The notes below the pieces were generated by a model that worked only from the letters and a program-made list of their open reading frames with translations, did no database searches and was not told the DNA's origin. DNA of 64,000 nucleotides from Lachnospiraceae bacterium. GTDB lineage: Bacteria; Bacillota; Clostridia; Lachnospirales; Lachnospiraceae. Below are positions 6,787 through 37,578 of the stretch, piece by piece; the first letter of the stretch is position 1, and the number at the start of each line of letters is the position of its first letter. Both the position numbers and the translations under genes were made by a program. The stretch covers positions 1-64,000 of the forward strand of contig CAJTCH010000016.1 of the NCBI GenBank assembly GCA_910574715.1. Reading direction: 5' to 3'.

Positions 6787-6861
6787 CTATCTCTTACCTG
6801 CCATCTGCTTCTCCTGCTGTCTCTTTTTATCACTGCCGGAGAACAAATTCCTACTTTTCAT
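6787..6861 (-). CDS. Possible 24-aa basic peptide overlapping the virB4 stop
   Basis: An ATG at 6859-6861 overlaps the end of virB4 in another frame and opens a 24-codon ORF beginning MKSRNLFSGSDKKRQQ and ending GKR, then a TAG. Stop and start overlap within 11 bases, so translational coupling is possible. The product is very basic and has no recognised family. It is short enough to be chance. Confidence 0.3.
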   Translation of the reverse strand: MKSRNLFSGSDKKRQQEKQMAGKR

Positions 6862-18077: not shown

Positions 18078-18790
18078 CTAATCTGCCATGCCGGTTTTTA
18101 CCGCCACAATGATATTCCGGGCATCCTTCCACTCATAGGAACAGGTCATCAGCGTCAGCACCTGATCCGCTTCCATCACTTCCGCATCTTCTCCCTTTTC
18201 AAACATTCCAAGCCCTTTTGCCCTAATCACGTAATCCTGCAGTCCTCCCGCCTCCGAAAAGTCAGCCTGTTGGAACGGAAACATCCGAATATCAGCCTTC
18301 ATTACTGACGCAATCCATTCCCGAACATTGCCCCGCTGTTCATGTTATGTCCGTAGATGATGAAATTCCGGCTTTCGGGCACTTTACAATTCCATTGCAG
18401 GAACAGGCTGCCGTTCGCATCCCGTTCTCCTTTATAATTCCGCTTCAGATAATACTCCGGGCTGTCTTCCCCGCTTTGAAGCACAGGGTAATCGATATTT
18501 GTACCTGGAATCGTAAGCCATCCCTGGACATCCGGATATTTTTCCCGAAGGGCGGCAAGATCCACAGACAGGATCCCTTTTTTTTTTCCAGCCGGTGAGC
18601 GTTCTTTGGAAGAGGCCGAACCTCCCGGAGGGATATCGCCCTCCGGGAACTCACCCTTCAATCGTTCTGCCGCTTCCCGGTTCCTCATTGGCATATACAC
18701 CATCTGATAAACTAAGAGCCCGGTACTGATACAAAATATCAACACCAGGACTGCCTGCCAAAACCGATATTTATTCACAATCTTCCTCAT
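18078..18790 (-). pseudogene. Class B sortase, split and internally deleted
   Basis: The first part (18302-18790, 162 aa) has an N-terminal membrane anchor (FWQAVLVLIFCISTGLLVYQ), the sortase strand GWLTIPGTNIDYPVLQ and the catalytic-His motif FIIYGHNMNSGAMFGN, then stops. The second part (18078-18302, 74 aa), in another frame with its ATG overlapping that stop, carries the catalytic Cys motif VLTLMTCSYEW and a late basic end. Roughly 40-50 residues normally lying between MFGN and the DYVIRAKGL helix are missing. It would have anchored the adjacent SpaA-type protein. Probably inactive. Confidence 0.8.
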
Positions 18791-21700: not shown

Positions 21701-21893
21701 GCACTCCCGTCCTGCCGTCCGGATGCACGATATCTTCCCTCGCATACAATCCATACACCGCACCGGCAAGCACGCTGTCTCCCTGGGGGAGGAATCTGGT
21801 CGTCTCCCGGTCGATCTTATTGAGATGGATACTGCCCTTTACACAATCATTTCCTGCCGATACCTGCGTGACCTTGCCTGCCTCTGCATCCAC
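18771..21893 (-). CDS. SpaA/CnaB-repeat surface protein with sortase signal, N-terminally truncated
   Basis: 1040 residues of repeated SpaA-type prealbumin-like (CnaB) domains, recognisable by recurring F-x-L-x-K-x-D, G-T-V-x-F and APEGY(L/V)L motifs (e.g. EITAPEGYLLDTTQYDV). The C-terminus has a VPKTG sorting signal, a hydrophobic helix and the basic tail KKRRERQ, followed by a 32-residue acidic extension. The frame enters through a GTG with no signal peptide and is blocked upstream by TGA at 21912-21914, exactly where IS-like sequence begins, so the true start was lost. It would be the element's surface adhesin or pilin substrate for the sortase downstream; export now seems unlikely. Confidence 0.82.
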   Translation of the reverse strand: MDAEAGKVTQVSAGNDCVKGSIHLNKIDRETTRFLPQGDSVLAGAVYGLYAREDIVHPDGRTGVLHRSGSLITQGTVGKDGTLEFTDLYLGKMFVKEITAPEGYLLDTTQYDVELAYGGQDQAEVTKSVTVAEQVKKQAFQMIKVSEDGEQTETDLVAGAGFKVYLVSNLSRVKSGELKPADGNAFTAADFRDYDFSGENVAVTYENGKAVPVPELITDSKGYAVSPELSYGLYVVKESRVPENLKEVDPFLVRIDADSREPMQWRVFDDRLFEFLMKIVKKDAQTGNTVLKAGTCYKIFDCKKKAYVEQAIQYPKKEKVSVFTTNEDGYLVTPEELKASTYRIEETEAPEGFVKQGSEEVLYTDGKMRSAGAIAGSGEYKEAPSKVVEVAIASNTAHQIDPDTGDAIVEVDQSNDEQVGSLTLTKTGEQLVKVQEGSILEKVKAVFTDLKDTIMGTETTGISRRFEYEESGVEGAGFELHAKETIYSPDGAKDENGNRIVRYSKDDLVAELTTDAEGKAVVNNLPLGSYYLKETRAGEHFVLNTEVKEFTLTAKDDTQAVVYEGVSYKNERQKVEVTVRKKDAVSGENLEGVIFGLYAGEDIVSNQGKVLVSKDTLLETKATDTEGTVTFDSDLYHGSYYVKEEQRLPGYLPNEEVWEFEAVYTDQNTKVLTFEQEVENQPTESHFTKKDATTGEELPGAKLQILDGDGNVVEEWISTEEPHVVYCLPEGTYTLHEELAPYEDGYVSAADVDFEVLEDGSVAEVEMEDEYSKIDISKTDLTTGEEIPGATLQILDPDGKVLEEWVTDGKPHRVEKLPVGEELTLREISAPDGYIVAEEVKFTLEDTMEVQKAKMKDDYLYGKIMLRKTDGATGKALAGAEFEIRNKTTGMTMETLVTDAEGKAESSDLLIGTYGTEGLRELFEYECVETKAPEGYVLDDTVHPVRFELENQMDDHIVVTLEVKNQLAEEAPAVPKTGDLPWLPMTLAAASIGAVIFFVVVTAKKRRERQMAGMDVEDAKKPDVEMLEVSVGLGNEEDCE

Positions 21894-24414: not shown

Positions 24415-25425
24415 TTAAAATTTACCTGCCTTCGCCGCTTCTTCAATCGCAACTGCAACCGCAACAGTCATACCAACCATCGGATTGTTACCTGCGCCGA
24501 TCAGACCCATCATCTCAACGTGAGCCGGTACGGATGAGGATCCTGCAAACTGTGCGTCAGAATGCATACGTCCCAATGTATCAGTCATACCGTAAGAAGC
24601 CGGACCTGCAGCCATGTTATCCGGGTGAAGCGTACGTCCTGTACCGCCGCCGGATGCTACTGAGAAATACTTCTTGCCTTGTTCGATACATTCCTTCTTA
24701 TAAGTACCTGCAACCGGATGCTGGAAACGTGTCGGGTTGGTAGAGTTACCTGTGATAGATACGTCTACGCCTTCCTTGTGCATGATCGCAACGCCTTCAC
24801 GTACATCATTAGCGCCGTAGCAGTTAACCTTGGAACGAAGTCCGTCTGAGTAAGCGATCCTCTGAACCTCTTTTAACTCACCTGTATAATAATCATAATC
24901 TGTCTCTACATAGGTAAATCCATTGATTCTGGAAATGATCTTCGCAGCATCCTTTCCAAGTCCGTTCAGAATAACGCGAAGAGGTTTCTTACGAACCTTG
25001 TTAGCCTTCTCTGCGATACCGATAGCGCCCTCTGCTGCCGCGAATGACTCATGCCCTGCAAGGAATGCGAAACAGTCTGTCTCCTCCTCGAGAAGCATCT
25101 TGCCTAAGTTACCATGTCCAAGTCCAACCTTCCTCTGGTCAGCCACAGAACCCGGAATACAAAATGCCTGTAATCCTTCCCCGATCGCTGCTGCAGCATC
25201 AGCAGCCGTCTTACATCCCTTCTTGATCGCGATCGCCGCACCTACTGTATATGCCCAGCATGCATTCTCAAAACAGATCGGCTGGATTCCCTTAACCTGA
25301 TTGTATACGTCAAGTCCGGCATCCTTCGTGATCTTCTCTGCTTCTTCAATGGAAGCAATGCCATAGCTTCCTAACACTTCATTGATTTTATCAATTCTTC
25401 TTTCATATGATTCAAATAAAGCCAT
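24415..25425 (-). CDS. GGGtGRT protein
   Basis: 336 residues with the family's signature FSVASGGGTGRTLHPDNMAA and the following GPASYGMTDTLGRMHSDAQF. The N-terminal half has a Cys-containing helix (QPICFENACWAYTVGAAIAI) and an FLAGHESFAAAEGAIGIA motif. Function is not established. It is always, as far as I recall, paired with the Fe-S scaffold-type gene that lies directly upstream here, so an Fe-S-linked metabolic role is plausible. Its 3' end is the ICE attachment site. Confidence 0.88.
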   Translation of the reverse strand: MALFESYERRIDKINEVLGSYGIASIEEAEKITKDAGLDVYNQVKGIQPICFENACWAYTVGAAIAIKKGCKTAADAAAAIGEGLQAFCIPGSVADQRKVGLGHGNLGKMLLEEETDCFAFLAGHESFAAAEGAIGIAEKANKVRKKPLRVILNGLGKDAAKIISRINGFTYVETDYDYYTGELKEVQRIAYSDGLRSKVNCYGANDVREGVAIMHKEGVDVSITGNSTNPTRFQHPVAGTYKKECIEQGKKYFSVASGGGTGRTLHPDNMAAGPASYGMTDTLGRMHSDAQFAGSSSVPAHVEMMGLIGAGNNPMVGMTVAVAVAIEEAAKAGKF

Positions 25426-25490
25426 TTACTTGTCCTCCTAATTTTTTCGTTACTTTTACGGACACAGATTGAACTTCCTTCAATCCGGTG

Positions 25491-26183
25491 CTATTCTTTT
25501 CTCGGGTCAATAATCTTTGCTGCGTCCGCAACACGTCCATACTGCCCTTTTGCCTTCTCCCATGCATCGTTCGGTGTATCGCCTGCCTTGATAAAGTCTG
25601 TGAACTTTCCAAGGTTAACGAACTGGTATCCGATAATCTCGTTGTTATCATCCAGTGCAACACCTGTTACATAGCCTTCTGCCATCTCAAGATAACGAGG
25701 ACCTTTTGCCAATGTTCCATACATAGTACCTACCTGAGAACGAAGTCCCTTGCCGAGATCTTCCAGACCTGCACCAATCGGAAGTCCGTCCTCTGAGAAC
25801 GCGCTCTGAGTTCTTCCGTATACGATCTGAAGGAATAATTCTCTCATTGCCGTATTGATCGCATCACAGACAAGGTCCGTATTAAGAGCTTCCAGAATAG
25901 TCTTTCCCGGAAGGATCTCTGAAGCCATAGCTGCTGAATGTGTCATTCCTGAACATCCGAGTGTCTCCACCAATGCTTCCTGAATAATACCGTCTTTTAC
26001 GTTTAAAGTGAGTTTGCAGGCTCCCTGCTGCGGTGCACACCAGCCCACACCATGTGTCAGACCGGAGATATCCTTTACCTCTTTTGCCTTTACCCATTTT
26101 GCTTCTTCCGGAATCGGAGCTGGTCCGTGATTTGCACCCTGAGCCACAGGACACATCATTTCTACTTCATGTGAATAAATCAT
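25491..26183 (-). CDS. Iron-sulfur cluster assembly scaffold-like protein (NifU-N type)
   Basis: 230 residues. IscU/NifU-like features: GWCAPQQGACKLTLNVKDG, ETLGCSGMTHSAAMASEI (cysteine in a G-C-S-x-x motif) and NTDLVCDAINTAMRELFLQI, giving three spaced cysteines that could hold a cluster. It starts behind GAAAGGAG and is followed 65 bp later by the GGGtGRT gene; the two appear to form a dedicated pair. The C-terminal part from about residue 150 is an extension not found in the core scaffold. Confidence 0.8.
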   Translation of the reverse strand: MIYSHEVEMMCPVAQGANHGPAPIPEEAKWVKAKEVKDISGLTHGVGWCAPQQGACKLTLNVKDGIIQEALVETLGCSGMTHSAAMASEILPGKTILEALNTDLVCDAINTAMRELFLQIVYGRTQSAFSEDGLPIGAGLEDLGKGLRSQVGTMYGTLAKGPRYLEMAEGYVTGVALDDNNEIIGYQFVNLGKFTDFIKAGDTPNDAWEKAKGQYGRVADAAKIIDPRKE

Positions 26184-26383: not shown

Positions 26384-26653
26384 ATGCTCTCTCCCAAAGA
26401 TTATTATATCCTGGCATTCGACACGACCGACAGTGTCATGGCGGCAGAAGCCTGTTTAAAAGAACATTTCCACATCACCATCATGCCCGTTCCCCGGGAG
26501 ATCAGCACTGGCTGCGGGCTTGCAATCCGTTTCCTAGATCCCGATGAAGCCGCGATCCTTGCCTTCCTTAACAGCAGTTCTCTGGACGGTACCCTGTACA
26601 GGATGAACACACAGAAGATCGGCGGAAGACATCCCATCGAGAGAATCAGATAA
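26384..26653 (+). CDS. DUF3343 protein, putative Se/S carrier
   Basis: Start placed at ATG 26384-26386 because family members begin like MLSPKDYYILAFDTTDSVMA; the longer frame adds a hydrophobic stretch unlike the family. 89 residues with VPREISTGCGLAIRFLDPDE, the conserved cysteine region. DUF3343 proteins occur with selenium-use genes and are described as putative selenium/sulfur carriers. Here it lies next to a five-Sec gene set, facing it across a shared terminator, which fits a role in selenium supply or transfer. Confidence 0.8.
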   Translation: MLSPKDYYILAFDTTDSVMAAEACLKEHFHITIMPVPREISTGCGLAIRFLDPDEAAILAFLNSSSLDGTLYRMNTQKIGGRHPIERIR

Positions 26654-26699: not shown

Positions 26700-26900
26700 T
26701 TATGAGATCCTCTCTGCCTCAAATCCCATCTCTTTTAAGATATCAAGCGTTACTTCCTGGCAATGGTCGCAGTCACAGATGGACACCTTCTTGCCTTCAA
26801 AATCAACTTCATGATTCACTCCTGCATCCTCTAATGCAGCATCGATCTTCTTAGCACAATCCGGACAGCAAAGCTCCGGTACGCTGAATACTCTCATCAT
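26700..26900 (-). CDS. HMA-domain metal-binding protein (MerP/CopZ-like)
   Basis: 66 residues, the size of a single heavy-metal-associated domain. The metal site is SVPELCCPDCAKKIDAALED, a C-C-x-x-C variant of the usual C-x-x-C, and there is an unusual second cysteine group CDCDHC in the middle. Soluble, no signal peptide. GGAGGATGG precedes the ATG and the gene is the last of the minus-strand SAO operon, 9 bp after the DsrE-like gene. It would bind a released soft metal ion (for example Hg or Cu) in the cytoplasm; the metal is inference. Confidence 0.8.
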   Translation of the reverse strand: MMRVFSVPELCCPDCAKKIDAALEDAGVNHEVDFEGKKVSICDCDHCQEVTLDILKEMGFEAERIS

Positions 26901-26909
26901 TCCATCCTC

Positions 26910-27242
26910 CTATAACGTAATTACCTGGTCTACACCTGCCGGAGCCAGCGCAGCGTACACATTCGGGAAGCATCCAATCCCTGCCGGGGCGATCAGCTTG
27001 TCCGCAATGTCTCTTTGATAGCAGCATCTGTCGCACGCCATCAGAAGCACGCCTGTCTTCTCGCTTAGCTTCTTAAGTCTCTCCGCAATATCGCATCCCT
27101 CTACCAGCATGTAAGCATTGTCAAAGAAGAACATCATGCCCGCAACCTCTGCTCCGTGACGGTCTTCTTCCATCTGGGGAATGATCATGTGCTCAAGAAT
27201 CTCTCTCGCATGCTCCGATTCCAATAAATAAGCTACCTTCAT
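26910..27242 (-). CDS. saoD: DsrE-like protein SaoD
   Basis: Start set at ATG 27240-27242 behind AGGAGGTGTAAGA. 110 residues: MKVAYLLESEHAREILEHMI and MMFFFDNAYMLVEGCDIAER give the DsrE/DsrF fold (small sulfur-relay proteins). A cysteine cluster, LLMACDRCCYQRDIADKL, sits where DsrE-family proteins keep their reactive cysteine. Between the Sec lyase and the HMA protein, it could receive a metal or a sulfur/selenium atom from the lyase. The name follows my memory of the SAO family set. Confidence 0.75.
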   Translation of the reverse strand: MKVAYLLESEHAREILEHMIIPQMEEDRHGAEVAGMMFFFDNAYMLVEGCDIAERLKKLSEKTGVLLMACDRCCYQRDIADKLIAPAGIGCFPNVYAALAPAGVDQVITL

Positions 27243-27264
27243 TCTTACACCTCCTGTGTTAGAT

Positions 27265-27885
27265 TTATACTTCAAATGTTGCCTTTGCCTCTTCAACTGC
27301 CTTCTCTATGTCCGCCTTAATGATTGAATCCGGGTCAAGCTCCATATCCGTAACGTATTGATCAAATTCTGCACCGCTGCAGAAGAAATTCATTACATTT
27401 CAGCAAGACCCTGCCCAGTTTGACAATTCTCCCAGAGGAAATGTCAGCGCATGCAGCGTCTTTGGTTCATATTCATCCACCTTCTCATCCTTGATCCGGA
27501 TATAGATCGGCTCGCCGCTCACCGCGCTCACCGAATTTACCTCGGTATCTTTATGGAACGTAAACGCGGCGCCGATGGCGTCGATGGCGCACATAGCAGA
27601 AAACTGCCTTCCGTCGTCAAGCGTAACCTGGTGGTTCGTCTTAAGGGCGGATACCGGATAGATGAAGTTCACCTTCCCCTTCTCGTCCACCACCATACCG
27701 TCTTTCTCTAGCAGACAGTCTGTGATCTCCTTATACTCCTCTTCCGTCATATGCAGGTACTCTAACGCAGCTTCCTTATCATTCTCTATATGATAAGCCC
27801 GCCCATGATCCACCGTAAATTCTATAATATACAGTCTCAGTTCGTTCTGCCTGTCCGTAAATTTTCTATGAACATTCTGATCCAA
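27265..27885 (-). CDS. saoL: MerB-like organomercurial-lyase-related selenoprotein SaoL
   Basis: 206 residues if TGA 27400-27402 is read as Sec. Before it lies the MerB core: FSAMCAIDAIGAAFTFHKDT keeps the Cys and Asp that cleave the carbon-mercury bond (Cys96/Asp99 in R388 MerB). The frame then reads SNWAGSC-Sec-NVMNFFCSG and continues without a stop to TAA at 27265-27267, matching MerB's end (CC-HVHFFAS), so Sec replaces one of MerB's adjacent cysteines. A perfect 7-bp hairpin with a GCGG loop (27367-27384) starts 15 nt after the TGA, as bacterial SECIS elements do. The gene overlaps the ATPase gene by 20 bp. Confidence 0.85.
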
Positions 27886-28723
27886 CGAATTCTACCTCCT
27901 CATTCTTGCCTTTCTGTCCCTGAATAAATTCCATCAGGTCTTTATCCTCCTGCGTAAATACGCCGCCGCTTAACGCATCCTTAAGGATCACCGTCAGGCG
28001 GTCCACATACTCATGATACTTAGGCGCCGTGCGGTCTCTCGGCCTTGGAAGATCGATCTTCAGGTCTTCAATGATCTTCCCGTGGTCTCTGGACATCACC
28101 ACAACACGGTCGCTTAAGTATATGGACTCATCCACATCATGGGTTACCATCAGCGCCGTAGTCTTCTTCTGCTGCAGGATCTCTTCAAGCTGCATCTGGA
28201 GCATCTGCCGCATCTGGAAATCTACCGCCCCAAGGGGCTCGTCCATCAGGAGCACCTGCGGATCACACGCAATCGCCCGAAGAAGCGCTACTCTCTGTTT
28301 CATACCACCGGAAATCTCATGAATATAATAATGCTCGTAAGCCGTAAGCTGCGCCATCTCAAGCAGCTCCTTAAGCTGCGCCTTACGCTGTGCTTTCGGT
28401 ACTTTCATCTTCTTCATAGGATACTCAATATTCTCTCCCACCTTAAGCCACGGAAATAACGCATAATTCTGGAACATAAATGAACGGTCCGTGCCCGGCT
28501 TCTTCACTTCATTGCCATTCACTACGATCTTACCCTCATTCGCCTTCCGAAAACCTGCGATGATTGTAAGCGTCGTAGTCTTACCGCAGCCGGACGGCCC
28601 AAGCAGTGATACGAATTCACCCTCTTCTACATTAAAAGAGACATCCTTAAGCACCACATTCTCCGGATCCCCCTTCTTCCTTCCTTTAAATACCTTCGTT
28701 ATCCCTTCTACAGATATGGACAT
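27866..28723 (-). CDS. saoA: ABC transporter ATPase SaoA (NitT/TauT type)
   Basis: 285 residues. Walker A LLGPSGCGKTTTLTIIAG, Q-loop MFQNYALFPWL, signature EISGGMKQRVALLRAIACDP and Walker B VLLMDEPLGAVD are all present, close to SsuB/TauB/NitT importer ATPases. A C-terminal extension of about 30 residues follows the usual end. It lies between the Sec substrate-binding gene and the Sec lyase and would drive the permease encoded on the other strand at 31156-31977. Confidence 0.9.
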   Translation of the reverse strand: MSISVEGITKVFKGRKKGDPENVVLKDVSFNVEEGEFVSLLGPSGCGKTTTLTIIAGFRKANEGKIVVNGNEVKKPGTDRSFMFQNYALFPWLKVGENIEYPMKKMKVPKAQRKAQLKELLEMAQLTAYEHYYIHEISGGMKQRVALLRAIACDPQVLLMDEPLGAVDFQMRQMLQMQLEEILQQKKTTALMVTHDVDESIYLSDRVVVMSRDHGKIIEDLKIDLPRPRDRTAPKYHEYVDRLTVILKDALSGGVFTQEDKDLMEFIQGQKGKNEEVEFVGSECS

Positions 28724-28754
28724 TCCTTAATCCTCTCTCTCTATCTCTATTCAT

Positions 28755-29540
28755 CTATGGCTGCCCCAGTGTCAGAAACCGAATCTTCTTATCCTTAAGC
28801 CAGTCTTCTTCCACCCCAAGCTTCCCGGCAAGAATCTCCGGATCATTCAGACTCTCGGCCGCCCGATTATAATTTTCTATAAATTCTCCAAATTCTTCCG
28901 TCTCCACAAACTTCTTATCCACTACCAGCACATAAGATATATAGTCCGTCTCTGAAATAGGCGCACACAGATAATCCGGTACATTCGCCGCCTTCGATAT
29001 ATCCTGGACTACTCCGTCCACCTGTCCGTTCTCCAGTGAATACAGAATCCCCTTCTGGGTGATCTCCTGAAATTCTTCGATCTGTGGATAGGTCTCCCTC
29101 GCCTGCTCCTTCTCATTCTGCCTTCCCTGACTGATACCGACAGTTCTCACATCCGCCAGATCACTCTTATAACACAGGACTTCCGCATTCATGATGACTG
29201 GGCCGTAGATCATGACATTCTCATTCTCCTCTATGGTATGCATAGCGATATGGCTGCAGTAGAACGCCACATTGATCTCCTCCGCACTCAGTGCCCACTG
29301 AGCAAGATTACTTCAGCAGTCCTGAAATGACGAACTCTCATAATCCTCCGTAACCTTACATACCCTGCCGAATTCCTCCACCGTTGCTTCCATCAGGACT
29401 CCGGAGATATCCGCTCCTGCTCCGACCCTCAGAGGCGCATCCTTATTCTGCCGCTCCTCTTTTGGGAAAAACACTGACACAAGTGTACCAACAAGTATCA
29501 GGCCTGATATAAAGACCGCAATCTTCCTGCCGTGCTCCAT
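28755..29540 (-). CDS. saoB: ABC substrate-binding selenoprotein SaoB
   Basis: 261 residues with Sec at position 76. An N-terminal membrane anchor or signal (KIAVFISGLILVGTLVSVFF) is followed by the start of a periplasmic-binding fold, then SSSFQDC-Sec-SNLAQWALSAEEINVAF at TGA 29313-29315 and the rest of an NMT1/TauA-like domain. The two halves are in one frame. A 6-bp hairpin CTCAGT/ACTGAG with a four-base loop (29287-29302) begins 10 nt after the TGA. A vicinal Cys-Sec pair suits binding of a thiophilic organometal. Without Sec insertion only a 75-residue stub would be made. Confidence 0.82.
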
Positions 29541-29544
29541 CTGC

Positions 29545-30705
29545 TTACGCTTCCTTCATTCTGGAATGCACCAGTCCGGATCTGATATATTTCCACAGAG
29601 AATACAGAGCATATGCGATCAGGACCAGGCTGCAGATCCACTCTCCCCACTCAGGTATGGTGACCATAAGCTTGTTCGCATGCGCGATAGTATTCGATGT
29701 CCTGTCAAAATCCAGCACCGGAACAAATCCCGGCATCAGTAATTTGTTCGTGATCCAGCCCACCAGATTGGAGATTCCGACTACCATGGTAAAATACATC
29801 ATCATAGCCCTCTTCCCAATGGTCTTTGTGATCGTCAATAATTCCGGGATATTCGTCCCGGCTCCCGCCATCAAGAATGTGATGGCGACTCCAGGCGCCG
29901 CCCCGCTGGCAACCAGCGCCGCGATAAACGGGATATGGCCCACCGCACAGACATACATAAGTCCTGCAACCACCGTGATCCCGAGAAGGGATATCATGCC
30001 CGGATTCCCAAGATAATCCTGCACGAAGGACTGGGGCACGACCGTGAATAAGAAACCCGCGATCAGCATCCCCGTAACCGTGTACTTGCTGATGGTCACA
30101 CTCAATTCGGTCAGTGACCAGCGAAGCCCGCTCTTTACCTTCTCCCAGAACGACGGCTCTTCGAACTCAAGCTGGATCATGGCCGGCGCATCCTCGTCGT
30201 CGGATTCCAGCGTAATCCTTCCCTCCTCTTCTTCCTGCTTCTTATGGATCTTATTGATCCCGATATGTAATTCGTCGCCGGCGTACTTATTCGCCACCAT
30301 GCCGATGATCATCGGCGCGACAAATCCCGTAATAACATAGATAATGGTAATCTCTTTGCCCAACAGCCCCCAGGATAGGATCACCGCCAGCGGATTGATC
30401 ATAGGCGTACTGGTCATGAACGCCAGCGTCGGCCCCAGATAAGCCCCGCTGTAATACATACTGATGCCAAGAGGAATCGTTCCGCAGCTGCAGATCGGTA
30501 TAAACATCCCCGACACCGTCGTCCAGAACACACCGCTCGCCCGCTTTGAGCCGATGGACGTCTTCTGTACCTTCTCAGGCTTCAGAAATTCATGCAGCAG
30601 ACCAGCTACGACAAAACTGAATACCAGCCACGGTGATGAACTGTTGAGCATCGACCACGCTGACACTACTATACTGGACAGAAACCCCCACAAATCTCCT
30701 ATCAT
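29545..30705 (-). CDS. saoE: Efflux permease SaoE (ArsP/YraQ, DUF318 family)
   Basis: 386 residues with eight or more membrane segments. The family motif FIPICSCGTIPLGISMYYSG and the repeat MTSTPMINPLAVILSWGLLG are present in the first half; the second half has FLMAGAGTNIPELLTI. The family includes ArsP, which exports trivalent organoarsenicals, so an organometal or metal product is a reasonable substrate. A cytoplasmic acidic loop lies near residues 155-185. Its ATG overlaps the stop of the thioredoxin-like gene, and the next gene starts 4 bp after its stop. Confidence 0.85.
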   Translation of the reverse strand: MIGDLWGFLSSIVVSAWSMLNSSSPWLVFSFVVAGLLHEFLKPEKVQKTSIGSKRASGVFWTTVSGMFIPICSCGTIPLGISMYYSGAYLGPTLAFMTSTPMINPLAVILSWGLLGKEITIIYVITGFVAPMIIGMVANKYAGDELHIGINKIHKKQEEEEGRITLESDDEDAPAMIQLEFEEPSFWEKVKSGLRWSLTELSVTISKYTVTGMLIAGFLFTVVPQSFVQDYLGNPGMISLLGITVVAGLMYVCAVGHIPFIAALVASGAAPGVAITFLMAGAGTNIPELLTITKTIGKRAMMMYFTMVVGISNLVGWITNKLLMPGFVPVLDFDRTSNTIAHANKLMVTIPEWGEWICSLVLIAYALYSLWKYIRSGLVHSRMKEA

Positions 30706-30956
30706 ATCTTCAACGCCTCCTCGAATGCTTTACGCACGGCAGGCTTGGTCAGCTTCGTCACTGCCTTCTTCTCGTTGATGACCAGCATACTCTTGGTCAC
30801 CGCACCGTACTTCTTGATATAATCAAAATCCTGACCTGCGCGATAGATCTTCACATTCACTCTTCCTTCATATTCTTTCTCCAGGACTTGAACCAAGTCT
30901 CCAAACACTTCACATCATGCACATGCACTGATATATTCGATGCAAGGCTTCTTCAT
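30702..30956 (-). CDS. saoT: Thioredoxin-like selenoprotein SaoT, C-A-Sec-C motif
   Basis: 84 residues with Sec at position 14: MKKPCIEYISACA-Sec-CEVFGD. Start ATG 30954-30956 follows GGGAGGTGCC. The TGA is 30915-30917 and the frame is open on both sides. The C-x-Sec-C group occupies the redox site of a small thioredoxin fold; residues after it (VNVKIYRAGQDFDYIKKYGA) fit. A hairpin GACTTG/CAAGTC (30885-30899) begins 15 nt after the TGA. It is first in the minus-strand operon and would reduce, or relay metal between, the other Cys/Sec proteins. Confidence 0.83.
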
Positions 30957-31155
30957 TCACGGCACCTCCCAACAATTTATTCCATCTTAATTATAGCTAT
31001 TATAGCTTTATTCGCCCGCACTTTCCGGTTTTATAAAAAAATACAATATTCGACACCGACTTTATTTTTTTGTATAATATTTCTATTATAATTATTAAAA
31101 TTTTGTTATGATTTGGCTGTATATATTATCCTCAATTCATAAGGGAGGTGAACAA
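30957..31155. promoter_or_regulatory. Divergent promoter region between saoT and saoP
   Basis: 199 bp, AT-rich in the middle, separating the two divergent halves of the SAO locus. Several TATAAT-like boxes occur on both strands (plus around 31073-31078; minus around 30999-31004), but no pair with a good -35 at 17 bp stands out. No repeat or palindrome long enough to call an operator was seen. Confidence 0.4.
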
Positions 31156-31977
31156 TTGGGAGATAACAAACAGGTAGATCGTATGATACACGCTACCAAG
31201 ACAAAAGACCGACAGAATTGGCGGAAAATGGGCGGCAGGAATTATAACAAGGGCGCGATCTTTTCCCTGGCCCTGATCTGTGTGATCTGGTATTTTGCCG
31301 CTCACGCAGTAAAAGCCCCGTTTATATTTCCGTATTTGGAGAATGTGGCCTATCAGGTCGTTTATTCATTAACCGATATGTATGTTTTAGAGAATCTTGC
31401 CATCACCATGCGGCGAGTCGTGACCGGTTCTCTGTACGCATTCCTGATCGGATTCCCGCTTGGAATGGTCATGGGATATTCACCCAAGCTTTTACAGACC
31501 ATGTCCCCATTCATCAATTCCCTGCGTCAGGTACCGATCATGGCCTGGGTGCCGCTCACCATCGTATGGTTTGGTATCGGGGACGGACCTACTGTTTTCC
31601 TGATCGCGTTCAGCGGTATTTTTACGATCATCCTCAATACCGTTTCCGGCGTACAGGATATTAGTAAGGATTTCTACAATGCCGCCAGATCCATGGGCGC
31701 GAACACATTCAATATCATCAAAGATATCGTAATTCCGGGTTCTCTCCCCGGAGTGCTTACCGGCATACGTCTGGCGATCGGACTTGGCTGGATGTCCGTC
31801 ATATGAGCGGAGTTCATTGCGACAAGTGCCGGATTCGGTTACATAATGGTGGAAGCACAGGGACGGTTAGAGACAGAGCGCGTCATCGCTTATATGGTGA
31901 TCGCCGGTCTGATCGGATACCTGATGGATACCATCCTGGTATTGTGCGAGAGAGCACTGCTTAGATGGAAAGAATAA
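31156..31977 (+). CDS. saoP: ABC permease selenoprotein SaoP
   Basis: 273 residues. I use the TTG at 31156-31158 because GGGAGGTG lies 5 bp upstream. It is a NitT/TauT-type permease: six membrane segments and the EAA-like loop NAARSMGANTFNIIKDIVIP. At TGA 31804-31806, GLGWMSVI-Sec-AEFIATSAGFGYIM continues to TAA 31975-31977; other permeases have Ala, Val or Cys there, inside the translocation path. Without read-through the last two helices would be lost. A G-T-G-C-C-G/C-G-G-T hairpin (31826-31842) begins 19 nt after the TGA. Sec in an ABC permease core is most unusual. Confidence 0.85.
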
Positions 31978-32022
31978 TTTCGGACGGAACAAAGGCATGG
32001 CCACCGGGTTGCCGCCGTCAGC

Positions 32023-32069
32023 AAAAGGCTGCTGCATATATGATCCTGTCATTATGCAGCAGCCTTTTA
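32023..32069. terminator. Bidirectional terminator
   Basis: AAAAGGCTGCTGCATA pairs with TATGCAGCAGCCTTTT between the convergent saoP and LysR genes; T-rich tails on both strands. Confidence 0.8.
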
Positions 32070-32975
32070 TGAGTATTTTTCTGCGCAGTATCTTCGAAGC
32101 GCTTCTATGGTCCGTTCCGACACGATGCTTAATTTCCTGTCTTTGTGATACATCAGATAGATCTGACGCTTCGTATTCACATTCTCAAAATTAAACTCTA
32201 ACACCTTCTGCTTATCCAATGATTCCTTTGCCGCCGTCCTGCTGATGAATGCGACTCCGCCGCCGGCCTCTACCGCCCGGCGCACCAGCTCCGATGATTC
32301 AAACTGCGCCGCCACATGAAGGGATGCGTGATTCAATTTCAGTCCCTCTTCCACATTCTCAGAGGCCGTCTTGGTCCCGCTGCCAAGCTCCCGTATCACG
32401 AACCACTCCCGGCGGAGCTGCTCAATGGGGAACTCCCCGTTCAGGTTCCTGTATTTGGCCTGGTTCGGCGTGATCAATATGATCTCGTCTTCAAAGAGGA
32501 TCTCCGAATAGATCTTATCATTCCCGCTGGTCAGGCCGCCGATCCCGATCTCCACATCATAATTCAAGATCTTCTGCAGCACATTCCCGCTGTCCCCCTC
32601 CGATACCTTGAAGCTGATATCCATATTCTTTGCCCGAAATGAAGCTAAGAACTGAGGGAACATATAGTTCCCGGGAACGGACGAAACCGCCATGGAAACT
32701 ACCCGGCCCGCCTCATTCTCATTCCGGTTCAGCTGCTCCAATGCCTGATTCTCTGTCTCTAATAACTGCAGCGCAAACGGATAGAATACTCTACCCTCCT
32801 CAGAGAGAACGATATCCTTCGTAGAGCGCACCAGAAGCTGTACTCCAAGCTCCGATTCCAACTGCTTGATATGTGTACTGATCGTGGGCTGCGACAGATA
32901 CAGATACTTTGCAGCCAGTGAAAAACTCTTATAATTAACGACTCCAATAAAGCTTCTTACGTATTCTAAACGCAT
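32067..32975 (-). CDS. LysR-family regulator
   Basis: 302 residues from ATG 32973-32975 (GAGGGAGAAG before it; a longer frame adds 11 residues). The N-terminal winged helix is typical: FIGVVNYKSFSLAAKYLYLS, then QPTISTHIKQLESELGVQLL. The remainder is a periplasmic-binding-like effector domain with few cysteines, so the ligand may be organic rather than metal. It is divergent from the cysteine-rich binding protein gene, the usual arrangement for a direct target. Confidence 0.88.
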   Translation of the reverse strand: MRLEYVRSFIGVVNYKSFSLAAKYLYLSQPTISTHIKQLESELGVQLLVRSTKDIVLSEEGRVFYPFALQLLETENQALEQLNRNENEAGRVVSMAVSSVPGNYMFPQFLASFRAKNMDISFKVSEGDSGNVLQKILNYDVEIGIGGLTSGNDKIYSEILFEDEIILITPNQAKYRNLNGEFPIEQLRREWFVIRELGSGTKTASENVEEGLKLNHASLHVAAQFESSELVRRAVEAGGGVAFISRTAAKESLDKQKVLEFNFENVNTKRQIYLMYHKDRKLSIVSERTIEALRRYCAEKYS

Positions 32976-33040
32976 ATCTTCTCCCTCGATCCTAAAATAT
33001 CTCATCATTTATTATATTGCTTTTTACTATTCTGGTCTAA

Positions 33041-33090
33041 TTGAAAATGATGATATATTTAACCTCTTTATTTGAAATGATAATATATTT
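33041..33090 (+). promoter_or_regulatory. Two direct repeats upstream of the binding-protein gene
   Basis: TTGAAAATGATGATATATTT (33041-33060) and TTGAAATGATAATATATTT (33072-33090) are near-identical and about 31 bp apart, three helical turns, between the LysR gene and the divergent lipoprotein gene. They are good candidates for LysR binding. The promoter itself is not clear. Confidence 0.5.
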
Positions 33091-33173
33091 TATTAGTCCT
33101 TTTTCTTCTCAGGCTCTTCTGCTATGATGAATGTAAATATTAATAAATATTAATTTTTTAAAGGGGGATACCA

Positions 33174-34451
33174 ATGAAAAAGAAATTAATTGCATCACTA
33201 CTGGCTGCGGCTATGCTCTGTTCTCTTCTCACAGCATGCCATAACAGCAGCGAGACCAATACCGTAGATGTTGAATCCACAGATTTTGATCCCAAGAAGG
33301 CAGTGGAGGACTATGAGTTCGGCGAGTTAAGCGAGGAAGAGAAGAACTATACCGTGGAGATGGGCTACTTCAACTGTGACCATATGTGTGCCTCCATTAT
33401 CGGAGAGAAATCCGGGATCTACGAGGCTCTTGGCCTGAAGGTCAACCTTACCAAATCTCCTGAGACAGTGAATGCCCTGATCAGCGGCGCCATGGACGTG
33501 GGATACATCTTCTTCAGCAAGAACCTGATGTCAGATGACTCCCCTGTTTATCAGGCAGCAGCCAACCACTTAGGCGGCTCCCGGTATCTCGTAGTCAGCA
33601 ACGATATCGATGTAGACGATCCGCTCTCCATCGAAGGCAAGACCATTTCCATGGATGCCGAACCGCAGGTTAACTCCGAGTGGAGAAAATGGTCCGAAGA
33701 ATACGGCTTCTCCTTCCAGCCAGAGGATTACGACATCGTTGCCATGGGACAGAAGGATGCCATGTTCGCGCTGAAGGCAGGACAGATCGACGCATTCACC
33801 TGCTGCGACCCATACGCTTCCCAGGCAGAATTCGAAGGCTTCGGCAAGATCATGTGTATCAGTTGGGGCGCGAACCTGGAAGAAGGCGAGCTTCTCACCG
33901 AAGAGAATGCCGGAACCTGCTGCAGCTACGCCATGTCTGTCGCTTTCAGGGAGAAGTATCCGGAGCTTGCACGCCGTCTTGTCTATGCCCATATGCTCTC
34001 TGTCAAATATTTATACGAGCATCCGTATAACGCAGCCATGATGTTCGCCGACGGCTTCGATGTAGACCCTTACGTAGGACTTCGTACCGTATATATGAAG
34101 ACGGTAGCAGAAGGCCGGACCATCACCTGGCAGTGGTCCGAACAGACCATGCAGAACAATGAAGATTTCCAGACACAGTGGAAGGATCCGGCCGTACCGG
34201 AAGAGGATATCATCTTTGCCAAGGATTCTATGAAGTCTCTGGAACTATCCAACGAGATCTTTGAAGAAGCCGGTGTTCCGGACTTTGATGAATTCATCAA
34301 GGATTCCGTGGAAGACAAGTTCCCGCTTGGAATGACCTTCGAAGACTGGTACAATGCCGCTAAGAAGATCGACAATATCTCAGACGAAGATGCGGTCGAC
34401 ATTACCGATACCGCAACACCTTATCTGAACGAGAATCTGGAAGAAGAATAG
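33174..34451 (+). CDS. Cysteine-rich ABC substrate-binding lipoprotein (NitT/TauT type)
   Basis: 425 residues. Lipoprotein signal MKKKLIASLLAAAMLCSLLT then AC, with the lipobox cysteine at about residue 22. NMT1/THI5-type fold. Three cysteine groups are unusual for the family: GYFNCDHMCAS, FTCCDPYASQ and GTCCSYAMS, so up to six thiols could line the site. It has no Sec, unlike SaoB. GGGGGATACCA precedes the ATG. It is probably a second receptor for the same importer, handing a soft-metal compound to SaoB or the permease. Confidence 0.82.
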   Translation: MKKKLIASLLAAAMLCSLLTACHNSSETNTVDVESTDFDPKKAVEDYEFGELSEEEKNYTVEMGYFNCDHMCASIIGEKSGIYEALGLKVNLTKSPETVNALISGAMDVGYIFFSKNLMSDDSPVYQAAANHLGGSRYLVVSNDIDVDDPLSIEGKTISMDAEPQVNSEWRKWSEEYGFSFQPEDYDIVAMGQKDAMFALKAGQIDAFTCCDPYASQAEFEGFGKIMCISWGANLEEGELLTEENAGTCCSYAMSVAFREKYPELARRLVYAHMLSVKYLYEHPYNAAMMFADGFDVDPYVGLRTVYMKTVAEGRTITWQWSEQTMQNNEDFQTQWKDPAVPEEDIIFAKDSMKSLELSNEIFEEAGVPDFDEFIKDSVEDKFPLGMTFEDWYNAAKKIDNISDEDAVDITDTATPYLNENLEEE

Positions 34452-34461
34452 GCTTAATATA

Positions 34462-34495
34462 AGGCGCCGTGAATCTGTCATGTTCCGGCGCCTTG
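34462..34495 (+). terminator. Terminator after the binding-protein gene
   Basis: AAGGCGCCG and CGGCGCCTT pair across a 15-16 nt loop, followed by GTATATTATT. Confidence 0.65.
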
Positions 34496-34516
34496 TATAT
34501 TATTGCCCGATTCCTG

Positions 34517-36133
34517 TCATCTCACCCGCGGAAAGTCTAAGATGAACATCGTCCCCTTTCCTTCCTCTGTCTTCACACGTATCGAGCCTCCATGCTCCTC
34601 CGTAAGCCTCTTTACTACCGTAAGCCCAATCCCCGTTCCTTCCCCGCCCTCTTTCGTCGTGAAGAACGGATGAAATACCTGCTGTCTGATATCTGCCGGA
34701 ATCCCGGCTCCGCTGTCCTCTACCACGAGGCGGACAGTCTTTTCATCATCCACGCTGAGTCCGAACTGGATCCGAAGCGTCCCTCCCTCCTTCATCGCAT
34801 GGAGGGCGTTGGTCGTCAGGTTCAGAAGGATCTGATTCAAAGCGCCTGCCTGTCCGCGGATATAGTAAGAGTTCCTGCTGAGGTTCTCTCTTAGCTTCAC
34901 CTCTTTGGGAAGCAGCTTCTTCACGATATTCACCGCCTCCTGTATCGCAAGAGCGGCGTCATATTCCGTATACACCTTCTCCGCCCTGCCCTGACGGCTG
35001 TAGCTTAGAAGCTGTCTCGCCAGCTCCTCGCATCTGCCCGCGGCGCTCTTTAGCTCCGTAACCTCCTCCGGCATCTCGTTAAAAACCGTCTCATTCTCCT
35101 CCAACAGATCGGCATACAGTACGATCGGCGTCATAAGGTTGTTAAACTCATGGGCAATGGATCCCGTCAGCACACTCATAGTCTTCGAGTGATTATATCT
35201 CTGCATCAGTCCCTCCTGCTGCCTCATCGTCTCATTCAGGGTCTTCTCGTGTTGTAACTCCCTCACCAGAAGCTCTTCCTTCTTCCTCTGTTCCGTGATC
35301 TTATAGATCAACGCCGCGGCACAGAGGATTGCCGCAGTTCCAAGCAGACAGAAATAAAAAGCGATCTGCTCGATGGGCTCTATGATCTGCTCATAATCTT
35401 CAATAATATAAAGATAGAACTCCTCTTCTCCTATCTCCAGGGCTTCATAGGCGACAAGCTTTCTCGTTCTCGTCGGCGTTCCGCTCTCCGTCTCATAGAC
35501 CCATTCGATCGTACAGCCGTTACGATCCATATGGGTAAGAGAGATCTCTTCCTTCGCATCCTTTCCCGGCATCACGGTGGTTCCGTCCGCCCCCTTCACG
35601 ATACAATACCTGCCGTTCTCAAGCCAGAGTCCTGACAATGCCTGTTCCTGGGCATAGATCTCATCCAGATTAAGCTCAGCCATCACATACCCTGAGATCC
35701 TCCCGCCCATTCCTACTGCCTTTGTCATATACAGGATGTAATATCCCTCTTCTGACTTCCTCACCGGTCCGGTAATAACGGCTCCGGGGCTTTCTCCTGC
35801 CCGCTCACAGAGTCTGTGCTCCCAATCTCTCAGTTCCTCTAACTCTTCGATCGGAATATAGCTTCCCTTCTCCCGCAGCCGTAGAAGTCCGGTCTCAATA
35901 TCCTCTTCCTTCCTCATGCCGCCTGAGAACACCGCATAGAGCAGATTCGCCTTCGCCTCCAGGCTCGACTGGAGACTCTTGGCATTCACTTGAGCAAGGC
36001 TTCTTAAGCTCTCCTGTTCATTTAAAACGATCGATCTTCTCACATCCTGATAGCTGAATACGGCAATCCCGAACAATGCCGCCACTCCAGCTGCCGTCAC
36101 TAGGATCTGCCTCCTAAGTCTCTTCTTATTCAT
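34517..36133 (-). CDS. Membrane sensor histidine kinase
   Basis: 538 residues. Two membrane segments (about 10-27 and 258-280) enclose an extracytoplasmic Cache-like sensor. Then a coiled coil, a dimerisation box SIAHEFNNLMTPIVLYADLL with the phospho-accepting His, and the catalytic domain with N-box NLTTNALHAM, G1 DSGAGIP, F-box FHPFFTTK and G2 GTGIGLTVV. The HEFNN box is of the NtrB type, yet its presumed partner, 98 bp away on the other strand, is an OmpR/PhoB-type regulator. The pair lies between SAO genes, so it may sense the compound that system handles; that is inference. Confidence 0.88.
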   Translation of the reverse strand: MNKKRLRRQILVTAAGVAALFGIAVFSYQDVRRSIVLNEQESLRSLAQVNAKSLQSSLEAKANLLYAVFSGGMRKEEDIETGLLRLREKGSYIPIEELEELRDWEHRLCERAGESPGAVITGPVRKSEEGYYILYMTKAVGMGGRISGYVMAELNLDEIYAQEQALSGLWLENGRYCIVKGADGTTVMPGKDAKEEISLTHMDRNGCTIEWVYETESGTPTRTRKLVAYEALEIGEEEFYLYIIEDYEQIIEPIEQIAFYFCLLGTAAILCAAALIYKITEQRKKEELLVRELQHEKTLNETMRQQEGLMQRYNHSKTMSVLTGSIAHEFNNLMTPIVLYADLLEENETVFNEMPEEVTELKSAAGRCEELARQLLSYSRQGRAEKVYTEYDAALAIQEAVNIVKKLLPKEVKLRENLSRNSYYIRGQAGALNQILLNLTTNALHAMKEGGTLRIQFGLSVDDEKTVRLVVEDSGAGIPADIRQQVFHPFFTTKEGGEGTGIGLTVVKRLTEEHGGSIRVKTEEGKGTMFILDFPRVR

Positions 36134-36231
36134 AATACCTCTTTTGGAAAATATTTGACATCAAAAACGCTGCCCGATATAATCTATGATAACAGAAGCA
36201 CAACACTCACAGAAAGGCAGGAATCAATCAT

Positions 36232-36939
36232 ATGTCCAATATCACCGTTCTCATTGTTGATGATGAAGCACCCGTATTAAAAGCTATATCCTCCGTACTA
36301 AGGCATGAACAGATAGATGCCGTCTGCGCTTCCGACAGCACGGACGCTTTCGCATGCCTTGCCCGTCAGACCTTTGACCTGATCCTTCTGGATATCATGA
36401 TGCCGGGTCAGGACGGCTTCTCTATGCTGCGGGAACTTAGGGAACGGAAGATCTTAACCCCTGTGATCCTCCTAAGCGGCAGGGAAGAAGACTCGGCCCA
36501 GGTAGAGGGTCTTGGTCTCGGCGCGGACGATTATATGACCAAGCCCTTCAGCAAGGCCGTGCTGGTCTCCAAGATCCGTGCCATCGTAAGGCGCACACAG
36601 CAGTATATCCCCGCCGCTTCTTCCGGCGCGCCTCTGTCCACAACTGCACAGGTGGGTGCCTTCACTCTGCATTTTGATTCGCAGACCGTATATAAGAATG
36701 ACAAGGAGATCTCCCTGTCCTCCAAGGAATTCTCCCTGCTGTGCTTTTTTATGGAGAATCCCGGGGTGCTCCTGACCAAACAGGAGATCTTCACCAAGGT
36801 ATGGAAGAGCGAGACTCTGGATGACAACTCCATCCTTGTATACATCAAGCGTCTCCGTGATAAGATCGAAGACAACCCTTCCAAGCCAAAGCACCTGACC
36901 ACAGTGTGGGGCAAGGGATATTGCTTCCATCCCTCTTAA
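36232..36939 (+). CDS. OmpR/PhoB-family response regulator
   Basis: 235 residues. Receiver domain with the acidic pair in LIVDDEAPVLK, the phospho-Asp in LILLDIMMPGQDG and the Lys in MTKPFSK. The C-terminal winged helix has LSSKEFSLLCFFMENPGVLL and VYIKRLRDKIEDNPSKPKHL then TTVWGKGYCF. AGGCAGGAATCAATCAT precedes the start. Divergent from the kinase gene. Confidence 0.9.
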   Translation: MSNITVLIVDDEAPVLKAISSVLRHEQIDAVCASDSTDAFACLARQTFDLILLDIMMPGQDGFSMLRELRERKILTPVILLSGREEDSAQVEGLGLGADDYMTKPFSKAVLVSKIRAIVRRTQQYIPAASSGAPLSTTAQVGAFTLHFDSQTVYKNDKEISLSSKEFSLLCFFMENPGVLLTKQEIFTKVWKSETLDDNSILVYIKRLRDKIEDNPSKPKHLTTVWGKGYCFHPS

Positions 36940-36948
36940 GACTGGCTT

Positions 36949-36965
36949 ATCTGCCGCCGGCAGAT
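36949..36965 (-). other. Hairpin downstream of saoC TGA, candidate SECIS
   Basis: Perfect 7-bp stem ATCTGCC/GGCAGAT with a 3-nt loop, starting 13 nt after the TGA of saoC. Neither strand has a T-run beyond it, so it is not a normal terminator although it lies between convergent genes. Spacing equals that of the other candidate SECIS hairpins in the window. Confidence 0.55.
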
Positions 36966-36975
36966 CAATCTACGC

Positions 36976-37578
36976 CTATCAGCAGTCTTCCATCCCTTCG
37001 CCGAACAGGTTGACGGTCTCCCCTTCCACCACACGGAAGATTCCGTATCCTACCTTATTGTCCTTCTGCCCCTGGAGAACGAACTCTATCTCGTCCTTCT
37101 TGTCTATGTTCTGGAACTGGATCTTCTGGTTCTCCACAGGTGCCGGGATCGGCTCTGTGAATTCATAATTCACTCCGTCCCCGGAATCAATGGCTACCGT
37201 AAGCCGGATATGCTTATGCCGTCCAAGATTCTCGGTCCCTACATGCTCGTCATCTTCCGTAGTAGCAAATATAACAACCAGATCCTTAAGCCCGTCATTG
37301 GTAAGATCCTCCTCACAAGCCGCCAACACCTCCGCCTCCGGATGCTCCTTATGAAAAGCTCCAAGGGTCGGATGCTCATCCGGTACATTCTCGGCGTAAG
37401 CCAAAGCCCTGCCAACCCTGTCTCCCTCGGAATATACATTGACCTCTCCCTCTCCTTCCCGCGTCTGCTGCCGCTCATACAGGCCGTCAAGCCTCCCCCG
37501 GATCAGGAAACCTGCCAATATTACCAGAATGATGATAACCATCTTCCCTCTTGTTTTTTTCAAAAATACTTTATCCAC
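36976..37578 (-). CDS. saoC: Membrane-anchored Cys-Sec-COOH protein SaoC
   Basis: 200 residues if TGA 36979-36981 is Sec; TAG follows at once, so the protein would end GEGMEDC-Sec. GTG start (37576-37578) with GAGGAAG before it. One N-terminal membrane segment (MVIIILVILAGFLI), then an extracytoplasmic domain with EDLTNDGLKDLVVIFA, a Ca-loop-like FG-GAP motif. Only the last residues carry thiol/selenol apart from one inner Cys. A C-terminal Cys-Sec pair on a flexible arm resembles the GCUG tail of thioredoxin reductase. I recall this family as Cys-Cys-COOH (seleno)protein SaoC. The alternative is simple termination at TGA after Cys. Confidence 0.75.

Follow-up and report, generated by a model that had tools for sequence, protein, structure and literature searches.

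What might a bacterium gain from five selenoprotein genes packed into 11 kb, and are the in-frame TGA codons of these genes read as selenocysteine (Sec)? The question is raised by positions 26700-37578 of a 64,000-nucleotide stretch of DNA, here called the window (contig CAJTCH010000016.1, positions 1-64,000, assembly GCA_910574715.1), from a Lachnospiraceae bacterium that is probably a gut inhabitant. Judged by its sequence, the locus is a member of the selenocysteine-assisted organometal (SAO) system, an already named system and not a new kind, and it is complete, with five predicted selenoproteins in a single stretch. In a profile scan of the window proteins, all nine Sao families (9/9: SaoL, SaoB, SaoT, SaoP, SaoC, SaoD, SaoA, SaoE and SaoX) exceeded the equivalog cut-offs of the NCBIfam SAO models (NF040727-NF040730 and NF040732-NF040736). 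A first-pass annotation, made from the DNA letters, had proposed both this identity and the positions of the named parts, and both proved right; the genes in its parts list were also confirmed, but it left out saoX (33174-34451). SAO was named from sequence by Haft and Gwadz in 2023, as cited in a 2026 review (PMC13188914), the accessible portions of which describe an operon of six selenoprotein genes. Six Sec sites were observed across the family; the window locus has five of them, and its SaoX has Cys at position 211, where one relative (L083; L and G numbers denote compared loci and genomes, respectively) has Sec.

The five predicted Sec residues are found in proteins of different types. 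On the minus strand, saoL (27265..27885; NF040728, 207.3 bits, cut-off 140) encodes a MerB-like lyase with a TGA at 27402 (first base, as for all codons below) that corresponds to residue 162 in the context SCUN. The ABC binding protein SaoB (28755..29540, minus strand; NF040727, 273.9 bits, cut-off 140), which is probably extracytoplasmic, contains a Cys75-Sec76 pair (TGA 29315, DCUS). The thioredoxin-like SaoT (30699..30956, minus strand; NF040730, 104.6 bits, cut-off 65) has the motif Cys12-Ala-Sec14-Cys15 (TGA 30917, CAUC). In the ABC permease SaoP (31108..31977, plus strand; NF040733, 397.7 bits, cut-off 295), Sec233 precedes a conserved AE (TGA 31804, VIUAE). The membrane-anchored SaoC (36976..37578, minus strand; NF040734, 166.9 bits, cut-off 80) ends with Cys199-Sec200 (TGA 36981, DCU-end). 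As had been annotated, a Cys lies beside or near the Sec in most sites (4/5), SaoP being the exception with none close. The accompanying claim of an open frame on both sides of each TGA holds for saoL, saoB, saoT and saoP and fails for saoC, in which TAG follows the TGA at once and Sec would therefore be the C-terminal residue. The CU motifs of SaoL, SaoC and SaoB agree with those described in the accessible portions of the review (PMC13188914), but SaoB has CUxxL in the window and CUxxT there, and SaoT has CxUC in the window and UxxC there, as in L085 and L088.

An open frame around a TGA is by itself a weak argument for Sec, as it is no rarer than chance in the window: joins with 60 or more open codons ahead of the codon and 20 or more behind it number 90 for TGA, 82 for TAA and 44 for TAG in the 64 kb. 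The TGA reading is lifted above chance because relatives show TGA or TGC/TGT at the same columns. The Sec column of SaoL contains nine TGA and two Cys codons (11/11 covered rows; two further matches end short of the column), that of SaoB 10 TGA and 11 Cys codons (21/21), that of SaoP 16 and 5 (21/21) and that of SaoC 4 and 17 (21/21). Together, these four genes have TGA or a Cys codon in 74/74 covered rows, a count that takes in near-copies of the window (L019 and L029/L030) and of L028 (L026) and that rests on alignments in which the relatives' TGA was translated as Cys. Such translation biases the alignments towards a Cys opposite each Sec, but the motifs on either side are conserved. SaoT displays 13 TGA and 8 Cys codons in 21/25 rows; the other four rows keep Cys or Sec at position 12 and Cys at position 15, and in L085 and L088 it is the first Cys of the motif that is replaced by Sec (UPSC and UPGC). 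Homologues run on beyond the TGA positions: coding continues past the TGA, and third-position changes dominate after it as before it in saoL, saoB, saoT and saoP. Stray in-frame TGAs are few in the aligned Sao proteins and are confined to the last codon of SaoT, SaoT position 12 (two relatives), position 211 of SaoX and the N-terminus of SaoP, where those of L022, L083 and L092 lie in an unconserved stretch that is probably ahead of the start.

Could the TGAs nevertheless be ordinary stops that reflect broken genes, sequencing errors or chance frames? Open frames and hairpins around TGA are common by chance in the window, as such a reading would have it. Against it stand the TGA/Cys exchange at identical columns, the coding signature after the TGA, the Sec machinery of the genome and the MerB profile PF03243, which matches SaoL with 85 bits over a stretch that runs straight across the TGA. 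We therefore rejected the plain-stop reading, which is scarcely credible. At the end of saoT, a further TGA (30704, minus strand) is followed by TAG and overlaps the saoE ATG (30702-30704 region). The corresponding position reads TGT/TGC and then TAG in L023, L081, L082 and L083, and the hairpin after it is unremarkable; this terminal TGA could encode a second, C-terminal Sec or simply end the gene.

The hairpins downstream of the TGAs contribute less than the codon columns. Candidate selenocysteine insertion sequences (SECIS) are present after the TGA of saoL (27368..27383, minus strand; 6-bp stem, GCGG loop, 22 nt after the TGA and at the same position in 7/9 TGA orthologues), saoB (29286..29303, minus strand; 7-bp stem, GGGC loop) and saoT (30880..30905, minus strand; GTT loop, 21 nt after the TGA, with the same loop in 11/13 TGA orthologues). 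A hairpin 3' of saoC (36939..36971, minus strand; -13.0 kcal/mol) lies where two convergent genes meet and is a candidate SECIS or else a terminator; no convincing SECIS was found after the saoP TGA. Among 400 random TGAs of the window, a SECIS-shaped hairpin as strong was found for 14.5% in the case of SaoL, 34.5% for SaoB, 40.5% for SaoT, 51% for SaoP and 5% for SaoC, and the ordinary stop of the neighbouring histidine kinase gene has a hairpin stronger than that of any of the five Sec sites. Hairpin energy was thus rejected as proof of SECIS, since random TGAs and this stop do equally well or better. Comparison between orthologues leaves the evidence for SECIS mixed: hairpins are stronger in TGA than in Cys orthologues for SaoL (p 0.027), SaoB (0.011), SaoT (0.004) and SaoC (0.039), and a G occurs within the first two loop bases in 43/52 TGA versus 15/43 Cys orthologues, although the p values are one-sided and uncorrected and kinship makes both them and the loop-G counts optimistic. 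SaoP alone is reversed for the loop G (TGA 10/16 versus Cys 4/5). The hairpins of the first-pass annotation thus exist, but their energies are not above chance.

The machinery for Sec insertion, which the first-pass annotation had named as a point to check, is encoded in one cluster on contig C13 of the genome. selA (602.2 bits, cut-off 267.9), selB (365.9 bits), selD (392.2 bits) and tRNA-Sec (64.5 bits) are all above their cut-offs, and the selD gene itself contains one in-frame TGA. Beside them are genes for YedE (462 bits, cut-off 200), YedF (227 bits, cut-off 110) and a cysteine-desulfurase-family protein (361 bits, under the Sec-lyase cut-off of 525), and the LysR regulator of this cluster reaches 433.2 bits with NF040786 (cut-off 250).

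What does Sec do in SaoL? In an alignment of the window SaoL, seven orthologues and three plasmid MerB-type lyases, 13 columns are invariant, including C99, D102 and Sec162/Cys, and Cys161 is not among them. We take the catalytic residues of MerB to be C96, D99 and C159. A phmmer alignment with the solved MerB2 structure 5c17 places Sec162 opposite its Cys; the one with 1s6l has gaps there, and Sec162 is offset by one position. Because it stands on an invariant MerB Cys column, Sec162 most likely stands in for the second catalytic Cys in a site of the MerB type. SaoL thus resembles MerB of the mer operon in retaining the columns of the catalytic Cys, the Asp and the second Cys/Sec, but it differs in the Sec itself and in scoring far too low for the MerB equivalog models (42.3 bits against a cut-off of 200 and 43.8 against 193). 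SaoL is not filed as MerB, yet, on these residues, it may work like MerB. The NF040728 model (159 positions) aligns to SaoL residue 161, just short of the Sec, and its scans are therefore blind to the TGA and the 44 residues after it.

The lyase is not a constant part of the system. The SaoL model is matched in 14/26 SAO genomes (11/17 of those of high quality) and unmatched in 12/26 (6/17). Dorea sp. 5-2 (L022) has lost the catalytic part of saoL and keeps just its ends; the single-contig genome G323 (L081) retains a frame-shifted remnant. The organometal-lysis half of the first-pass proposal is therefore a prediction that would not hold for every SAO genome, and the core looks like a transport and relay system and not like a lysis system.

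The remaining Sao proteins are rich in conserved soft ligands. In counts that score Sec as Cys and leave aside L019, L021, L026, L029 and L030, the ligands C75, U76 and C95 of SaoB are conserved in 19/19 orthologues, C199 and U200 (a Cys/Sec column) of SaoC in 18/18 and C12 and C15 of SaoT in 21/21. SaoD, a DsrE-related protein with a CxxC motif (26910..27242, minus strand; NF040732, 190.3 bits, cut-off 169), conserves C70, C73 and C91 in 18/18. SaoE (29545..30705, minus strand; NF040736, 565.3 bits, cut-off 325), which conserves C72, C74 and C253 in 20/20, is an ArsP-type efflux permease with an ArsP_1 domain (PF03773, 181.6 bits); it shares this domain and conserved Cys residues with ArsP and SO_0444-type permeases but forms its own equivalog family. 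SaoX (33174..34451, plus strand; NF040735, 436.8 bits, cut-off 300), an ABC binding protein and probably a lipoprotein, conserves C68, M71, M107 and C211 in 17/17, and its predicted fold is that of a type-2 binding protein such as SsuA, TauA and Thi5 (pLDDT 85.7). Together with SaoP and the ABC ATPase SaoA (27866..28723, minus strand; NF040729, 439.8 bits, cut-off 360), SaoX resembles importers of the TauC/SsuC-TauA/SsuA type in sequence, but these importers differ from SAO, which has Sec in its permease and Cys or Sec in its binding proteins. The SaoC model (last residue omitted; pLDDT 82.7) consists of a long N-terminal helix and a beta domain, and its fold matches are weak, the best being integrin-alpha propellers or propeller blades (E 0.026). 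To us, the Cys-Sec tail of SaoC is reminiscent of the C-terminal Cys pair of MerA.

Thus, we propose, with somewhat better than even confidence, that the SAO locus with its five selenoproteins captures, relays and exports a soft metal, most likely mercury or methylmercury, with lysis by SaoL as an addition. Outside the cell, the selenolate/thiolate pairs of SaoC and SaoB would, together with SaoX, catch a soft thiophilic metal or organometal, which would be imported via SaoP-SaoA, where Sec233, next to the conserved AE motif of the permease, would offer a soft ligand. In the cytoplasm, SaoL, where present, would protonate the carbon-metal bond in a MerB-like manner, Sec162 acting where MerB uses its second catalytic Cys. 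Handing on the freed ion to SaoE for expulsion could then fall to SaoT (CxUC), SaoD and a small HMA-like protein, and a two-component pair and a selenium-type LysR regulator would control expression. Since many members of the family do without SaoL, soft-metal capture, relay and export would be the function common to all. The gene content, the Sec positions, the Sec machinery and the MerB-type catalytic residues of SaoL can be read from the sequence; it is the joint action of these proteins and their substrate that we infer here.

Several observations weigh against this proposal. The hairpin energies within the window are no better than those of random TGAs, and the strength of the SaoP hairpin is alike in TGA and Cys orthologues (p 0.42). 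Some of the 12 genomes counted as lacking SaoL are incomplete assemblies, and one of the unmatched genomes, G1172, holds a partial SaoL (L027). ABC importers are odd in a resistance system, SaoE has some likeness to Cu/Zn exporters as well (NF033936, 210 bits, cut-off 300), and the selenium-linked neighbours could mean selenium handling. The accessible literature yielded no substrate, binding or growth data for SAO, and no biochemical test of SAO turned up in the portions available of papers citing the 2023 naming, two of which (PMC11448449 and PMC12013277) showed that citation there in the reference list alone.

Two of these points lead to other explanations. The locus could serve homeostasis of, or resistance to, another soft element, such as Cu/Zn-like ions or trivalent organoarsenicals; SaoE would then be the central component, and SaoL would act on a substrate other than mercury. 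The ArsP_1 domain of SaoE and its score with the SO_0444 Cu/Zn exporter model, albeit under the cut-off, fit such a role, as does the lack of a SaoL match in many genomes, but the many selenolates and the MerB-type lyase chemically suit mercury best on general knowledge, and we judge this explanation unlikely. A selenium-handling system, which would import or detoxify organoselenium or shield the selenium pool from soft metals and be regulated with selenium metabolism, strikes us as more improbable still. It would account for the LysR regulator, which passes the selenium-metabolism model NF040786, for the putative Se/S carrier DUF3343 and for the grouping of Sao genes in a selenium-metabolism figure (legend of Fig. 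5 of the mlp-cluster preprint, PMC10418091, in the text available). The selenium-family LysR occurs in 9/23 SAO loci and DUF3343 in 8/23; a selenium-linked LysR subfamily and DUF3343 have been proposed to belong to selenium metabolism, according to the accessible part of Lin et al. 2015 (PMC5322559). SelB is found in 24/25 SAO genomes, even where all Sec columns seen are Cys (L028, L087, L089, L090 and L093), and is missing only from G1170, a 1.7-Mb assembly that retains the TGA in SaoP. SelB is common, however, with 266/398 genomes of the phylum sample, an overall rate from which per-family rates are not readable, and its presence in 8/8 other SAO genomes of this sample gives p of about 0.04 before relatedness is considered. 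Since SelB is so widespread in the phylum, its co-occurrence with SAO says little, and we rejected it as proof of a selenium role. The MerB catalytic set retained by SaoL likewise speaks against selenium as the object of the system.

In 13/22 loci, a Sao gene has a gene for a double-cubane-cluster-type reductase (PF06050) no more than 1.5 kb away. Given how many such genes each genome carries and the rounded genome sizes, 0.30 loci would be expected; L084 is left out here, and the window and L019 are counted as one. Without L026, a near-copy that is 99.3% identical to L028, the figure is 12/21. The loci are related, and the 13 are therefore not independent events. NF040772 is above its cut-off in 7/8 of the PF06050 proteins scanned, and an activase gene stands beside the reductase gene in L024, L088, L091, L092 and L093. 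Reductase and activase genes occur in or beside SAO loci at L022 13932-16236 and L024 7614-9553, in L091 and L093 and in others. Two saoL genes apart from an SAO locus also have a PF06050 gene about 0.3-1 kb away (G659 C150:20538-22349 and G669 C5:130075-132550). No double-cubane reductase gene is at the locus in the window or in its nearest relatives; the window genome contains two genes of this type, both on contigs other than this one. The reductase accompanies 7/8 well-covered loci whose genomes have no SaoL (6/7 without the near-copy) and 7/12 with SaoL (p = 0.19; not counting the short contigs L084, L087 and L094, including L092 at a distance of 2.3 kb and taking L027 as SaoL-bearing for its partial copy), a difference that is not significant, and compensation of SaoL loss by the reductase was rejected. 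The optional lyase and this neighbourhood shift the likely core from lysis to soft-metal capture and export. A more specific and tentative idea, which we hold to be rather doubtful, is that SAO is a modular, selenolate-lined soft-metal relay, in which a constant core for import, relay and export would be joined by cleavage or reduction through exchangeable modules, either SaoL or an ATP-driven double-cubane reductase. Haft and Gwadz may already have noted the pairing; in the literature available, we found it only in the mlp-cluster preprint (PMC10418091), in which the legend of Fig. 5 names Sao genes alongside a dicubane cluster protein.

SAO is sparsely distributed. SaoE is above its cut-off in 5/397 genomes of the family sample, 5/12 of the genus sample, 4/391 of the class sample and 9/398 of the phylum sample, all of which include the genome of the window; L095-L097, which have SaoE-like proteins below the cut-off and no other Sao gene found, are not in any count. 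The contig region G117 C8:98633-103138 (in L083) has two SaoE matches above the cut-off within a single SAO locus. No plasmid match to SaoE was found at E 1e-40 and no viral relative in a pattern-based search for close relatives, and carriage by plasmid or phage was rejected accordingly.

Several neighbours in the window lie outside the SAO models. The small HMA-like metal-binding protein (26700..26900, minus strand), encoded by the last gene of the saoTEBALD run, has six Cys, which are kept in 3/3 orthologues; PF00403 is below its cut-off (E 0.009), and no NCBIfam family is above cut-off. The LysR regulator of the selenium-metabolism family (32067..33008, minus strand) scores 290.9 bits with NF040786 (cut-off 250). 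The two-component pair consists of a sensor histidine kinase (34517..36133, minus strand; PF02518 and PF00512, with a weak dCache match below cut-off) and an OmpR-type response regulator (36232..36939, plus strand; PF00072 and PF00486). The putative Se/S carrier DUF3343 (26384..26653, plus strand; PF11823, 64.8 bits, cut-off 25) is convergent with the operon and is a probable associate. Among the 23 loci, a count from which the 3.3-kb fragment L021 and the two pieces L029/L030 of one near-copy genome are left out, although they are in the codon counts, the histidine kinase occurs in 6, the response regulator in 7 and the HMA protein in 4; these are nearer loci only, and those with the HMA protein are all close relatives. 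Genes for NifU and GGGtGRT proteins next door were rejected as parts of the system, as they occur in 2/23 loci only. In the window, a GGGtGRT protein (PF14057) and a NifU-like protein (24415-26183, minus strand) are 99.7-100% identical to those in L020, and the Sao genes there are 84-98% identical.

Other features lie further away in the window. A glycine-reductase-type protein B with an in-frame TGA (U351 in TSTUGTSSRCG; TIGR01918, 418 bits, cut-off 65) is a sixth probable selenoprotein, outside SAO, and adjoins a match to the fluoroacetate reductase subunit FarE (911.9 bits, cut-off 675); the pair occupies 59372-60688 and 60701-61984 on the minus strand, and a second GrdB-like gene is at 62359-63186. 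A mobile-element-like stretch on the minus strand contains genes for a TraG-type ATPase (6851-9613), a DNA methylase (10685-11533) and a SpaA-repeat surface protein (18771-21893).

What does the locus mean for the biology of these bacteria? To the naming of SAO, the present analysis adds that the lyase is optional, that double-cubane reductase genes are frequent neighbours and that Sec falls on a MerB catalytic column. Five selenoproteins in one 11-kb system represent a dense use of Sec, and any gene caller that reads TGA as a stop would break saoL. Demethylation of methylmercury in the gut has been reported, and one human study found no merB in its faecal samples (Rothenberg 2016, cited in the accessible part of PMC8220164). 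The Sec-bearing relative of MerB was found in Lachnospiraceae and Dorea records, and SaoL is thus a candidate for the demethylation of methylmercury in the gut.

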